Assembly (NCBI GenBank): GCA_029213065.1
Contig: JARGPH010000030.1
Span: 1 to 64,000, forward strand
DNA length: 64,000 bases
Source: Verrucomicrobiales bacterium
GTDB taxonomy: Bacteria; Verrucomicrobiota; Verrucomicrobiia; Verrucomicrobiales; DEV007
Reading direction: 5' to 3'
The number at the start of each line of letters is the position of its first letter. Within the stretch, counting starts at the first letter, position 1. The notes beneath the pieces are model-generated. The model was not told the DNA's origin and ran no database searches. It saw only the letters and a program-made list of their open reading frames with translations. The translations under genes were made by a program, and so were the position numbers. This document shows, in pieces, positions 5,332-10,056 of the stretch.

Positions 5332-7800
5332 ATGAAATTGCGGCGCACCATTTTTTTCGTGTTTCCAGTTCTGTTGATCACAGACCTCTCCCTTGCTGTT
5401 GAATCCACCGACACCGCGTTCTTCGAATCAAAGATCCGTCCTGTCCTGGTCGAGAATTGCTACAAATGCCATTCCGTTGAATCGGGAAAATCAAAGGGCG
5501 GCCTCCTCCTCGATACGCAGGCGGGAACGCTTCAGGGAGGCGACAACGGCCCCGCGGTCGTTCCCGGAAAACCCGACGAAAGCCTTCTCGTCGCGGCGAT
5601 CTCTCACGCTCAACCGGATTTGGAAATGCCTCCGAAAAAGGCTCGATTACCGGACGGGGTCATTGCGGACTTTAAGCGCTGGATAGAGTCCGGGGCAGCC
5701 GATCCCCGCACCGAATCGACCGGGTCCCTTTCCCATGCGCCGACTGATCTGGAGTCAGGCAGAAAGTTCTGGGCCTTCCAAAAACCACAGCCGCCGCCAG
5801 TCCCTAAATCCGATAAAAACGCTCCCTGGCCGAAATCGGATACAGATCAGTTTATTCTGGCATCGTTAGAAAAAAAAGACCTCACCCCCTCCCCCGACGC
5901 AGCGCCGGCAGTCCTTCTGCGCCGGCTCCATTTTGATTTAACAGGCCTCCCTCCATCGCAAGAGGAACAAAGCGCGTTTCTGAAACGCGTTGATGAATCA
6001 GGAATCGACGCGGCCCTCGCCGAACGAACCGATCAACTTCTCGCCTCGAAATCATTCGGCGAACGCTGGGGAAGGCACTGGCTCGACGTGGCCCGCTTCG
6101 CCGAGTCCAGCGGCAAGGAATCGAACTTCACCTTCCCCGAAGCATGGCGCTACCGGGACTACGTCATCGATGCGTTCAACCGGGACATTCCGTTTGATCA
6201 GTTCATCGCCGAACAGCTCGCGGGAGATCTGCTCCCCGCAAAAGACGACGCAGAACGGGCCCGCCTCCTCATCGCAACCGGTTATCTCGCCATCGGACCC
6301 ATCAGCCTCAACGCGATGAGCAAAGAACAATCTCTCGCCGACGTCGCTGACGAACAAATCAACGCGAGCACTCAGGCATTCATGGCGACGACGGTGGCCT
6401 GCGCACGCTGTCACGACCACAAATTTGATCCGGTTTCAATGGAGGATTACTACGCCATGGTCGGCATTTTCCGGAGCAGCAAAACCTACTATGGAACTGC
6501 AGTCGGACCGGACAATCAGCTCGGGGGTGATTTGATCCATCTTCCCGACTCGCTCGATCTTCCCGTGTTTTACAAAGCGATCAAACCGGAGAAAGTCGCC
6601 GAACTGAAACAGGAGAAAATCGATCTCATCGAGAAAGAGAACGAAGCCAGAAAAAAAGCAGAGCAGGCAGTGAAAGAGGGAAAAGATCCCTCTGAATTTT
6701 TCAGCCTCCAAATGGCCATCGCAGGTCTCTGGCGCAAAGGTGCCATCGACGGTCAACTCTCCCTCGTCGGTGAAGAGGGCAATCCCAACACAATGTGCAT
6801 GGGCGTCACTGAAGGAGAGGAAATCAAAAATTCCCCGGTCTACGAACGCGGCGAACTCGCCACCCCGCTCGAATCGGAAGTCCCGCGCGGGTTCCCCGAA
6901 GTGGTTCAACTTTCCGACCCTCCGGAAATTCCCGACGATGAAAGCGGACGCCTCCAATACGCGGAATGGCTCACCCACCCCGACCACCCGCTCACCGCAC
7001 GCGTCCTCGCCAATCGGGTCTGGAAGCACCTCTTCCGAACCGGCATTGTCCGCACGACCGACAACTTCGGCTTCAACGGCGAGCGCCCCAGTCATCCCGA
7101 CCTCCTCGACCACCTCGCTCTTCAACTCGTCACCGAACACAAGTGGTCGGTTAAAGGACTCATTCGCGAGCTCGTTCTTTCCCGCAGCTACCGCCAGTCA
7201 TCCGACTTCCGCGAGTCGGCCTTCCTCAAAGATCCCGAAAACCGGCTCCTCTGGAGAATGTCGAAACGTCGACTCGACGCGGAGGAAATTCGAGACGCGA
7301 TCCTTTTCGTCTCCGGCGACATCAACCTGACACGTCCCGTCGCATCGATCATCGGACGCACCGGAGACCGCAACGCAGCCCTGCTCCCGTTCGCGAAAAA
7401 CATTCCGGCCGATCTCGACGGATCGGTGCATCGCTCCGTTTACCTTCCCGTGGTGAGAGACCGTCTCCCCGACGTTCTCGAGCTCTTCGACTTTGCTGAA
7501 TCCAGTCTCGTTACCGGAGACCGGGAGACCACAAACGTCCCGATGCAGGCTCTCTATTTCATGAACAGTGATTTTGTGGAAGAACGCTCGACCAGCTTTG
7601 CACAACGCGTCAAGAGCGACGCCGGGTCAGAACGAGAGGCGCAGTTCAAAGCCGCCTTTCAACGTTGCTTCAACCGGCGCCCCGATTCAGAGGAGATCGT
7701 CCTGGCCACTGAGTTTTTCAGCAACGAGCCTGGACCGGATTCTTTGAAACGCTACTGTCAGGCGCTCCTCTCCACCGCCACCTTCCGTAACCTCGATTGA
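5332..7800 (+). CDS. PSD1-type protein: planctomycete cytochrome c domain + DUF1549 + DUF1553
   Basis: 822 residues with a signal peptide (1-22). A single haem-c motif CYKCH lies at residues 43-47, in the surface-exposed cytochrome-like domain typical of PVC bacteria. The DUF1549 core follows (for example RWGRHWLDVARFAES near 245, and CARCHDHKFDP, a second CxxCH, near 360). A charged coiled-coil linker covers about 420-450, then DUF1553 (ANRVWKHLFRTGIVRTTDNFG near 560 to the C-terminus). The family is abundant in Planctomycetota and Verrucomicrobiota, is usually paired with a DUF1501 gene as here, and is linked to polysaccharide use, but its reaction is unproven. A GAGGA element sits about 5 nt before the ATG. 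Confidence 0.9.
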   Translation: MKLRRTIFFVFPVLLITDLSLAVESTDTAFFESKIRPVLVENCYKCHSVESGKSKGGLLLDTQAGTLQGGDNGPAVVPGKPDESLLVAAISHAQPDLEMPPKKARLPDGVIADFKRWIESGAADPRTESTGSLSHAPTDLESGRKFWAFQKPQPPPVPKSDKNAPWPKSDTDQFILASLEKKDLTPSPDAAPAVLLRRLHFDLTGLPPSQEEQSAFLKRVDESGIDAALAERTDQLLASKSFGERWGRHWLDVARFAESSGKESNFTFPEAWRYRDYVIDAFNRDIPFDQFIAEQLAGDLLPAKDDAERARLLIATGYLAIGPISLNAMSKEQSLADVADEQINASTQAFMATTVACARCHDHKFDPVSMEDYYAMVGIFRSSKTYYGTAVGPDNQLGGDLIHLPDSLDLPVFYKAIKPEKVAELKQEKIDLIEKENEARKKAEQAVKEGKDPSEFFSLQMAIAGLWRKGAIDGQLSLVGEEGNPNTMCMGVTEGEEIKNSPVYERGELATPLESEVPRGFPEVVQLSDPPEIPDDESGRLQYAEWLTHPDHPLTARVLANRVWKHLFRTGIVRTTDNFGFNGERPSHPDLLDHLALQLVTEHKWSVKGLIRELVLSRSYRQSSDFRESAFLKDPENRLLWRMSKRRLDAEEIRDAILFVSGDINLTRPVASIIGRTGDRNAALLPFAKNIPADLDGSVHRSVYLPVVRDRLPDVLELFDFAESSLVTGDRETTNVPMQALYFMNSDFVEERSTSFAQRVKSDAGSEREAQFKAAFQRCFNRRPDSEEIVLATEFFSNEPGPDSLKRYCQALLSTATFRNLD

Positions 7801-7801
7801 T

Positions 7802-9223
7802 ATGATGAACGCTCCTTTTATTCCCTCGAGACGGACGCTCCTGAAATCGATCTCCTCCGGCTTCGGCTACCTTGCCTACGCGAGTCTCGCTGCGGAGGAA
7901 TCCTCAAAAGCCGGCCGGAAAAACCTCTCGGTTCGCTCACCGCATTTTCCGGCGAGAGCCAAACAGGTCATCTTTCTGTGCATGAAAGGCGGCCCCTCAC
8001 ATGTCGATACCTTCGACTACAAGCCCGAGCTGCAAAAGCGAAACGGCGAGCCCTGGCGCGGCGGTCCGGCGCGACTTCTTTCATCCGCACAGGAATTCAA
8101 ACAGCACGGCGAATCGGGGTTACACATCTCCTCACTCTTTCCTCACCTTGCCAAAAATCATGCCGATGACCTTTGCGTCATCAACAGCATGCACACCGAT
8201 TTGCCGAATCATCCGCAGGCGTATGCTCAGCTGCATACCGGAAGCTTTCAGTTTGTGCGGCCGTCTCTCGGCGCCTGGTCACTCTACGGGCTGGGCTCAT
8301 CGAATCAAAACTTACCCGGATTCGTAACCCTGAATCCCCCGTCAGACATGGGGGGCGCCAACAACTACGGAAGCGCCTTTCTCCCCGCAATCTACCAGGG
8401 TGCCAAAATCGGAGGCGGCCAGCTCCCCGCGCTCTTTTCGGCCCTTTCGGGCAAAACGGAGGAACCCGGCCCTCCCATGAAAAACATCGACAACCCGCAC
8501 GTCTCCCGGAAAACGCAGCGGGCACAGATCGATCTCATCGCGGGACTCGACCAACGCAAACTGGAACACGATCACTACCATCCCGAAATCGAAGGATCGA
8601 TCCAGTCATTCGAACTGGCCTATCGCATGCAGGATGAAATTCCCGACGTTCTCGATATCCAATCCGAACCCGAGTCCATTCAAAAGCTCTACGGTGTCGG
8701 TAGATCCGGCGACGGTGATCGCTTTGCCAAACAATGCCTCCTCGCGAGACGCCTCGTCGAATCCGGAGTCCGCTTCGTGGAAGTGACCGCCCCGACGAGC
8801 TGGGACCATCACAGTCTTTTGAACCAAAACCTCGCGAAAAGCAGCGAGGTCACGGACCAGCCCATCGCAGCACTCCTGACCGATCTCAAAAACCGGGGGA
8901 TGCTCAAGGACACCCTCGTGGTCTGGTCCGGCGAATTTGGACGCACGCCCTACGCACAGGGGCTGGGTGACGGTCGCGACCACAACAACAAAGGCTACTC
9001 GATGTGGATGGCCGGCGGAGGAGTCAAAGGCGGCTACGCCCATGGATCAACCGATGACTTCGGCTACAAGGCGATCGACAAGCCGGTGCACATCCATGAT
9101 TTGCACGCCACTATTTTGCACCTCTTAGGATTGGATCACGAGAGGCTCACCTACAACTACGCCGGTCGCGAATTCCGTCTCACCGATGTGTATGGAAATG
9201 TAGTGACTGATATAGTGGCATGA
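7802..9223 (+). CDS. DUF1501 family sulfatase-like periplasmic protein
   Basis: 473 residues. The N-terminus contains a basic segment (RRTLLKS) followed by a hydrophobic stretch, a Tat-like export signal. The core has the alkaline-phosphatase-fold look of DUF1501: FLCMKGGPSHVDTFDYKP, later VVWSGEFGRTPYAQ and GRDHNNKGYSMWMAGGGVKGG, then HDLHATILHLLG near the C-terminus. DUF1501 members partner PSD1 proteins and are often called sulfatase-like, but the formylglycine Cys motif (CxPxR) is absent, so true sulfatase activity is doubtful. The ATG lies one base after the PSD1 stop, so the two genes are almost certainly co-translated. Confidence 0.9.
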   Translation: MMNAPFIPSRRTLLKSISSGFGYLAYASLAAEESSKAGRKNLSVRSPHFPARAKQVIFLCMKGGPSHVDTFDYKPELQKRNGEPWRGGPARLLSSAQEFKQHGESGLHISSLFPHLAKNHADDLCVINSMHTDLPNHPQAYAQLHTGSFQFVRPSLGAWSLYGLGSSNQNLPGFVTLNPPSDMGGANNYGSAFLPAIYQGAKIGGGQLPALFSALSGKTEEPGPPMKNIDNPHVSRKTQRAQIDLIAGLDQRKLEHDHYHPEIEGSIQSFELAYRMQDEIPDVLDIQSEPESIQKLYGVGRSGDGDRFAKQCLLARRLVESGVRFVEVTAPTSWDHHSLLNQNLAKSSEVTDQPIAALLTDLKNRGMLKDTLVVWSGEFGRTPYAQGLGDGRDHNNKGYSMWMAGGGVKGGYAHGSTDDFGYKAIDKPVHIHDLHATILHLLGLDHERLTYNYAGREFRLTDVYGNVVTDIVA

Positions 9224-9278: not shown

Positions 9279-9980
9279 ATGAAAGCATCCCTCATTGCTA
9301 TCGCGATCCTTTCGCTGGCTCTCTCAGGAGCCGATGCGCGCACCTGGACGAGCGCCGACGGTTCAAAAACCTTCGAAGGGGATCTGCGGGCCTATGATGA
9401 AAACTCAGGTATCGTCACCGTTATTATCAACGGGCGGGCCGTGGAATTTCCCAAATCGAGGCTCTCGGCAGAGGATATCACTTTTCTCAATGAATCGGCC
9501 ATGCCCGAAGCGGCTGTGGGACCTGATACCGAAACGGAAATCGGAGCAAAAGTAGCGAAAGCGAAGCTGCAACGCCTTGAGGGCAAGCGTTACAAAAAGG
9601 CGGAACTCGAAAAGAATCCGAAATATTACATCCTCTATTACTCGGCTTCGTGGTGACCACCTTGTCGAGCATCTGCTCCACAGTTGGTGGAGAAATACAA
9701 CAAGGAAATCGCAGAGAATCCGAACGTAGAATTGATCCATGTTTCACTGGATCGATCCGAAGACGCAGCCGAGGACTGGGCCGAAACCAATCAATTCCCC
9801 TGGTTCTCAGTGCTGCCAAGAGACGTCGAGCGGAGTAAACTGACCGACTACATGACTCGAAACGCCGTTCCGCACTACTCCCTGAGAGCGGCTGATGGAA
9901 CAGAACTCGCGAACGGCTCAGCCGCTATCTTCAGCAAGTTAGCGGAACTCGGTGACGAGACGTCGAGCGCTTCCCAATAG
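9279..9980 (+). CDS. Probable selenoprotein: SHD1 domain + thioredoxin-like domain with Sec-Pro-Pro-Cys active site
   Basis: Read through the in-frame TGA at 9654-9656, this gene encodes 233 residues: signal peptide (1-20), an SHD1-like domain (about 21-72; RTWTSADGSKTFEGDL ... FPKSRLSAED), a charged linker, and a thioredoxin-like domain (about 105-220). The active site reads YYSASW-U-PPCRASAPQLV, so TGA stands exactly where tryparedoxin/nucleoredoxin-like proteins carry the first Cys of WCPPC (residue 126; resolving Cys 129). Protein-like sequence continues in the same frame for 107 codons (VELIHVSLDRSEDAAEDWAE, FPWFSVLP) to a TAG. A 13-bp hairpin begins directly after the TGA. It should act as a periplasmic thiol oxidoreductase. 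The alternative is a nonsense mutation of a Cys codon. TGA is a normal stop in neighbouring genes, so the genetic code is standard. Confidence 0.75.
9657..9690 (+). promoter_or_regulatory. Candidate bacterial SECIS hairpin directly 3' of the in-frame TGA
   Basis: Starting at the base after TGA, the RNA folds as CCACC / UUGU / (C) / GAGC / loop AUCU / GCUC / (C) / ACAG / (UU) / GGUGG: 13 pairs, one of them a U-G wobble, with one C-C mismatch and one UU bulge. The apical loop lies 15-18 nt after the TGA, near the lower end of the spacing known for bacterial SECIS elements. The loop lacks the G usual in the first two loop positions of E. coli-type elements, so SelB recognition would need to differ. 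The U-G pair holds only on the + strand, in keeping with function in the mRNA. Confidence 0.55.
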
Positions 9981-10056
9981 AAGGTGAGAAGGTGAGAAGG
10001 TGAGAAGGTGAGAAGGTGAGAAGGTGAGAAGGTGAGAAGGTGAGAAGGTGAGAAGG
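9979..10056. repeat. 8-bp tandem repeat (AAGGTGAG), nine full copies
   Basis: Nine perfect copies of AAGGTGAG run from 9981 to 10052, with a partial copy on each side; the leading AG belongs to the TAG stop codon of the Sec thioredoxin-like gene. The array fills most of the gap between this gene and the convergent gene ending at 10095. Perfect identity between copies indicates recent slippage. The unit contains a purine-rich AAGGTGAG stretch resembling a ribosome-binding site, but no gene starts after it. Confidence 0.95.

Follow-up and report, generated by a model that had tools for sequence, protein, structure and literature searches.

The DNA analysed here (the window) is a stretch of 64,000 nucleotides from a Verrucomicrobiales genome of 5.9 Mb (80 contigs, 96% complete), in which a forward-strand reading frame that starts with an ATG at 9279 is interrupted at codon 126 by a TGA. 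There are 125 codons on the 5' side of this TGA and 107 on the 3' side, with no further in-frame stop, and the context is SASW-U-PPC, so that the TGA takes the place of the first Cys of a W-C-P-P-C motif and aligns with the redox Cys of homologous proteins. The similarity to thioredoxins runs through the codon, with Pfam Thioredoxin_8 spanning residues 115-199 (1.7e-14), while the Pfam families AhpC-TSA and Thioredoxin also match across it. An earlier reading of the letters alone (the sequence-only reading) had described a frame open on both sides of a TGA at the first Cys of WCPPC, with sequence homology continuing past it, and both points were borne out. The TGA is very probably a selenocysteine (Sec) codon, and the apparently truncated gene would almost certainly give a full-length protein. 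The features of the locus are listed in Table 1.

Table 1. Features of the SHD1-like/Sec-thioredoxin gene in the window, with putative roles and the evidence for each.
Feature	Positions	Strand	Details and evidence
SHD1-like / Sec-thioredoxin gene	9279..9980	+	233 residues with TGA read as Sec; TAG stop 9978-9980
Probable signal peptide, residues 1-20	9279..9338	+	MKASLIAIAILSLALSGADA; Lys, hydrophobic run, ADA (direct reading)
SHD1-like beta domain, residues ~21-73	9339..9497	+	Pfam 13 bits, model
Thioredoxin-like domain, residues ~87-232	9537..9974	+	Pfam, profile and fold matches, model
TGA read as Sec126 (very probable), residue 1 of the U-P-P-C redox motif	9654..9656	+	Frame reading and homologues
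TGT, second redox Cys (residue 129)	9663..9665	+	Invariant in 32/32 aligned proteins
Predicted SECIS hairpin	9676..9692	+	6 bp, 25 nt after TGA, -9.1 kcal/mol; covariation
Parts of the predicted SECIS			Stem CUCCAC (9676-9681) / GUGGAG (9687-9692), apical loop AGUUG (9682-9686)
Pro198, thioredoxin cis-proline position	9870..9872	+	At least 90% conserved; invariant in one alignment

Two genes, one of the PSCyt1/PSCyt2/PSD1 type and one with DUF1501, lie 5' of the Sec-thioredoxin gene (window 5332-9223), and the 3' neighbour is a reverse-strand gene without a Pfam match at E≤0.01, beyond which follows a frame that we take to be MiaB. Matches to DUF1501 were also present in the gene upstream of the thioredoxin gene at L027, L052 and L053 (all Cys orthologues), and PSCyt matches at L025, L026, L032, L052, L053 and L202, with a PSCyt/PSD1 gene alongside DUF1501 in L052 and L053; the absence of such neighbours means little, since most loci were available with a flank of about 1.5 kb or less. 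Genes of the DUF1501 and PSCyt/PSD1 types are numerous in these genomes, and the shared DUF1501 neighbourhood is possibly due to chance; we do not propose that the genes are functionally linked. Inside the stop codon of the Sec-thioredoxin gene begins a tandem repeat with a perfect 8-bp unit (AGAAGGTG, window 9979-10056, 9.8 copies).

Homologues were searched for in 95 genomes (that of the window and 94 relatives), which gave at least 39 copies with a TGA, and in 286 genomes of the class, which gave at least seven new ones; with at most 10 candidates scored per genome in the class search and 7 in a search of the phylum, and weak matches unlisted in the 95-genome search, further Sec copies may exist. 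In all 46 listed copies with a TGA, this is the first residue of U-x-x-C, at the same codon as in the window, and the codon for the second redox Cys is retained in all 46. The comparison set of Cys homologues consists of 34 copies, of which 11 came from the 95-genome search, 20 from the class search and three (L052-L054) from a contig scan that gave 79 loci and yields Cys forms only, as its search pattern demands a Cys codon. Left out of these counts were L204 (a TlpA-type Cys protein without a TGA row), L177 (no motif by the pattern used), one match to the pattern in L054 that was due to chance, and the Cys matches of L055-L130. Two Cys copies from different genomes of the genus of the window (L027 and L038) are identical in the tree alignment to L053 and L054. 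The alignment of orthologues at the TGA codon, which the sequence-only reading had proposed, thus gave a shared TGA in orthologues from the same genus, family and order, with Cys instead in some near relatives.

The phylum search (E 1e-12) found matches in 71 of 387 genomes, and its TGA copies were that of the window and five in G253, G257 and G325, all within the order of the window; among the matches listed for the 44 matching genomes outside this order there was no copy with a TGA. The SHD1-fused Sec family was therefore seen only in Verrucomicrobiales among the genomes sampled. Viral contigs gave distant matches only (27 loci, best E 2e-9) and were excluded from the analysis. A second clade of Sec-thioredoxins was noticed in relatives (13 rows: L187, L189-L194, L196-L199, L201 and L202), mostly with the motif YHSASWUG[AG]C, where the SECIS stem has been rewritten with the pairing retained in many rows. 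Adjacent duplicate Sec-thioredoxin genes were also observed, at L034 (502 and 1472) and at L035 (1867 and 2362), the latter with L200 close by on the same contig.

The protein is probably exported, as predicted from its N-terminus, and probably combines an SHD1-like domain with a tryparedoxin/ResA-like domain. AlphaFold2 was applied to the window protein, using 24 Cys relatives and with Cys standing in for Sec; the model (pLDDT 88.7, pTM 0.64) has an N-terminal helix and a small beta domain (residues 21-73), which a linker connects to a thioredoxin fold. The signal-peptide region is modelled as a helix (5-14) of low pLDDT, and the SHD1-like domain as four strands and a helix, mostly of high pLDDT. 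Residue 126 stands immediately before helix 127-144, with the UxxC motif opening the active-site helix, and the cis-proline position is conserved; Pro198 presumably acts as the thioredoxin cis-Pro. The top PDB matches were a Wuchereria thioredoxin and tryparedoxins, followed by ResA, StoA and others, while 13 NCBIfam families matched at E≤1, none above its curated cut-off. The claim of an N-terminal SHD1 domain stood in part: SHD1 (PF03983) matches at E≤0.01 in 14 of 32 aligned members (best 1.1e-7), while the window copy scores 13 bits, under the Pfam gathering cut-off of 23.7, and hence we speak of an SHD1-like domain.

With such an N-terminal part, the UGA might also be a selenium-responsive switch, at which translation would stop under scarcity of selenium, leaving a 125-residue SHD1-like fragment for export, and would run on to the full enzyme when selenium is plentiful, with both products functional. 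This would agree with the resemblance of the part 5' of the TGA to a self-contained domain with its own signal peptide, and with UGA recoding being incomplete in some cases (30-40%, in an excerpt of PMC4513850), but the SHD1-like part is absent from several Sec homologues (L037, L041, L042 and the second copy of L035), and the Cys versions have no stop at that codon, making such a double role unlikely.

From the TGA onwards, 48 nt were aligned without gaps. Columns 23-39 of this alignment (window 9676-9692) form a compact hairpin of which 92.8% of 276 cells are paired in the 46 Sec copies, a level reached by 0/500 shuffles, compared with 31.5-60.5% in six slid registers. Cells with both sides changed numbered 38 against a shuffle mean of 7.5 (0/500 shuffles as high), and the covariation score of 0.436 was likewise reached by 0/500 shuffles, while two of five covariation measures lay within the shuffle range, these being the number of pairs with a double change (5/6, reached by 79/500) and the number of further pair types (reached by 26/500). 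The stems vary widely (CUCCAC/GUGGAG, CGAAGC/GCUUCG, CUGCAC/GUGCAG, UUUCAC/GUGAAA), and the loop is AGUUG in 34/46 copies, AGUUA in 5/46 and another five-base variant in 7/46; L200 has only one of the six pairs in this register. Among the 34 Cys homologues, 30 of them distinct, the same pairs are 55.6% paired and show two double-change cells, and RNAalifold recovered the compact hairpin in the Sec set and predicted no pair and no consensus structure for the Cys set. As the hairpin also encodes the conserved peptide APQLVE, its conservation may be partly driven by the protein; the Sec copy L037 and the Cys copy L038 share APQLVE with different synonymous codons at 4/6 positions.

Published limits for bacterial SECIS elements (bSECIS) are a loop of 3-9 nt, a stem of 4-16 bp, an MFE of -7.5 or lower, a G in loop positions 1-2 and a spacing of 16-37 nt (excerpt of PMC13188914), and the hairpin of the window falls within all of them (5 nt, 6 bp, -9.1 kcal/mol, AG, 25 nt). 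A looser form of this rule was passed by 37/46 Sec copies, with 9/46 failing, and by 3/34 Cys copies; by MFE over columns 19-42, 11/46 Sec copies are weaker than -7.5 and 8/34 Cys copies reach -7.5. A SECIS model (R1) searched against the genome of the window at E≤1 matched this gene alone and no second gene, not even the selD gene or a deiodinase-like candidate described below, which makes R1 specific to this Sec-thioredoxin family.

The sequence-only reading had instead pointed to a stem of 13 pairs starting at the base after the TGA (9657-9690), which as the functional SECIS of a Sec protein would be an alternative to the compact hairpin. It is computable, being the minimum-energy structure predicted for 9654-9710, at -16.2 kcal/mol, and the better fold from the TGA onward, with an energy equalled by 6/200 shuffles. 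Across the 46 Sec copies, however, it is 59.5% paired versus 59.0% in shuffles, and between 24 and 35 of the 46 lack pairing at columns 4-6 and 15, so that it is not a conserved element. Longer stretches around the TGA (9600-9750, 9620-9720, 9630-9730 and 9639-9710) have the compact hairpin in their MFE fold, and this is also the best fold (-9.1 kcal/mol) when 12 or 15 nt are trimmed from the UGA, as they would be under the ribosome, though with 9 nt trimmed a third fold is slightly better (-9.8 kcal/mol). Judging from covariation we take the SECIS to be the compact hairpin at 9676-9692, and a role for the 13-pair stem in its place is very improbable; a structured hairpin was thus rightly expected, but the conserved one is shorter and lies further downstream.

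All four genes of the Sec machinery (selA, selB, selC and selD), for which the sequence-only reading had proposed a search, were found above cut-off in the genome of the window. Contig C52 carries selA (501 bits), selB (291.8) and selD (379.9) within 11 kb of one another, and a tRNA-Sec (60.6 bits, gathering cut-off 47) which ARAGORN types as tRNA-SeC with the anticodon tca. The selD gene (G000:C52:244838-245767; L019:788-1876) has an in-frame TGA of its own, in LSSCAGUASK, and the selenophosphate synthetase is probably itself a selenoprotein in this genome. Elsewhere in the genome, a redoxin-family frame with a TGA in FGCLTUPPF (G000:C65:21947-22339; L233:1402-2100) matches Pfam T4_deiodinase with 31.6 bits (cut-off 27), and is a candidate deiodinase-like selenoprotein.

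The selA search covered the same 95 genomes, with the Sec genomes G253, G257, G325, G330 and G349 of the class search lying outside this set. A selA match was obtained in 48/95 genomes (46 above cut-off), among them 31/31 genomes with a Sec copy (29 above cut-off, the matches in G038 and G055 being partial and below it) and 17/64 genomes without one, giving a Fisher p of 5.8e-13, which is uncorrected for kinship and overstates the evidence because the genomes are related. In G030, G028, G012, G072 and G093 selA is present, yet the best listed copy has Cys, and L027 and L038 are Cys copies in selA-positive relatives. A tRNA-Sec above cut-off was found in 25/31 Sec-copy genomes; the other six, all with selA (G002, G004, G017, G026, G041 and G050), gave none above cut-off, nor did ARAGORN detect a tRNA in the regions flanking their selA genes. 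This search used strict filters and 39 scored candidates per genome on fragmented assemblies, and the six misses may stem from the filters, the few candidates scored or assembly gaps. It is unfit as a test of co-occurrence, since tRNAs of the ordinary kind obtain scores as well (those for Leu, Ser and Gly in the genome of the window) and above-cut-off matches occur in genomes without selA. Two above-cut-off tRNA-Sec matches were observed about 0.6 kb apart in the relative G010 (C73:119883-119977 and 120585-120679).

For the part 3' of the TGA, comparison with the nearest relative (L023) gave dN 0.14 and dS 1.29, and other pairs gave 0.03/0.58 (L030-L031) and 0.10/1.30 (L025-L026). The comparison took in both sides of the TGA for a total of ten pairs, where 6/20 dS values were uncomputable and five exceed 2.5, so that the close pairs carry the weight; dN is below dS wherever dS could be computed, pointing to purifying selection 3' of the TGA, and the decay that the sequence-only reading had named as evidence against selenocysteine left no sign there. 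A tree of 80 rows made with a quick method and rooted at the midpoint, in which five long terminal branches were flagged (four of them the Sec rows L195, L196, L200 and L202), needs seven Sec/Cys changes, at least five of them by well-supported branches, against a shuffle mean of 26.1. The Cys rows L038/L054, L027/L052/L053 and L032 are nested among Sec rows in this midpoint-rooted tree, which would most simply be read as losses of Sec to Cys accompanied by loss of the SECIS.

These results also bear on whether the TGA is an ordinary nonsense mutation or a sequencing error in a gene for a Cys thioredoxin, as might be thought with TGA one base away from TGC and TGT and with Cys homologues in existence. 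Such an accident would have to explain the identical position of the TGA in every listed Sec copy, a dN well below dS 3' of it, the co-occurrence with selA, a hairpin that covaries in Sec and not in Cys copies, and the presence of a TGA in just 2/29 AhpC/TSA-type matches of the genome; we give it hardly any credence, and the earlier judgement that a random nonsense mutation was not to be expected here was well founded. A reading of TGA as Trp or Cys, genome-wide or through a suppressor tRNA, is equally implausible, as nothing was found in its favour beyond the alignment of the TGA with Cys, whereas TGA terminates the neighbouring gene (9221-9223) and the orthologue frames L026 and L030, and the tRNA found with the anticodon TCA is the tRNA-Sec.

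Thioredoxin-like proteins with a Sec UxxC motif are known and abundant (excerpts of PMC13188914, PMC2398784, PMC1088965 and PMC9312934), and Sec machinery and selenoproteins have been reported in Planctomycetes (excerpt of PMC4807772). The known bacterial Sec proteins nearest to the window protein are the UxxC classes Trx (PF00085), Trx-like 1 (COG0526), thiol-disulfide isomerase-like (cd02966) and Prx-like (PF00578), with which it shares the thioredoxin fold, the UxxC motif and a predicted SECIS 3' of the UGA (excerpts of PMC13188914, PMC2398784 and PMC1088965). It differs from them in its probable export, its N-terminal SHD1-like domain and in scoring above no NCBIfam cut-off, with Thioredoxin_8 as the best Pfam match. 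Tryparedoxins carry a WCPPC motif and are among its best solved relatives by profile and fold, but the named ones are eukaryotic Cys proteins, and use of trypanothione is not expected here. The thiol-disulfide oxidoreductases ResA, StoA and TlpA, which are exported, are further structural relatives with a thioredoxin fold, from which the window protein is set apart by Sec in place of Cys, by the SHD1-like domain and by reaching no curated family (30.7 bits for NF041202 StoA, far below the cut-off of 210). The bSECIS of the E. coli fdhF type is a small stem-loop whose loop contains G and U. The predicted SECIS of the window is similarly a small stem-loop 3' of the UGA (general model in an excerpt of PMC13188914), but has a near-invariant loop of its own. 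Among the matches listed from excerpts of the open-licence selenoprotein literature there was no SHD1-fused Sec-thioredoxin family, which does not prove its absence, and no open-licence paper combining SHD1 and selenoprotein was found. As thioredoxin folds with a Sec-containing UxxC motif are already known, the suggestion of a new selenoprotein architecture applies to the fusion and the lineage and not to the principle.

Taken together, the open frame, the position of the codon, the covarying hairpin, the Sec machinery, the co-occurrence with selA and the purifying selection support, at the level of sequence, a reading in which we have high confidence, namely that the gene encodes a probably exported SHD1-like/thioredoxin selenoprotein, with the UGA decoded as Sec through a compact SECIS, which would act as an extracytoplasmic oxidoreductase. 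SelB carrying Sec-tRNA(Sec) would bind the short hairpin with the loop AGUUG just 3' of the UGA, and Sec would be inserted there in place of termination. Outside the cytoplasm, the protein would then act as a selenol-disulfide oxidoreductase, in which Sec126 would attack a substrate disulfide or oxidised thiol and Cys129 would resolve the selenenylsulfide. The fold suggests that it works in the direction of a reductase, with electrons probably supplied by a DsbD-type membrane protein, and there is one DsbD_TM gene in the genome of the window.

More tentatively, and with rather less than even confidence, the Verrucomicrobiales may possess a lineage-specific extracytoplasmic selenol redox system, made up of exported Sec-thioredoxin paralogues (those fused to SHD1, those with UxxC alone and the UGxC clade) which would share one type of SECIS with a near-invariant loop and would have undergone repeated duplication and conversion to Cys, while the SHD1-like domain would perhaps direct the redox part to specific partners at the surface. 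With its covariation and its near-invariant loop, the hairpin provides a usable search model for this Sec-thioredoxin family, and the Sec/Cys pair L037/L038, with the same APQLVE peptide, makes both the requirements of the bSECIS and the advantage of Sec testable. Within a single bacterial order one can trace this thioredoxin family together with its Sec codon and SECIS, and also how the SECIS was lost in the Cys versions.
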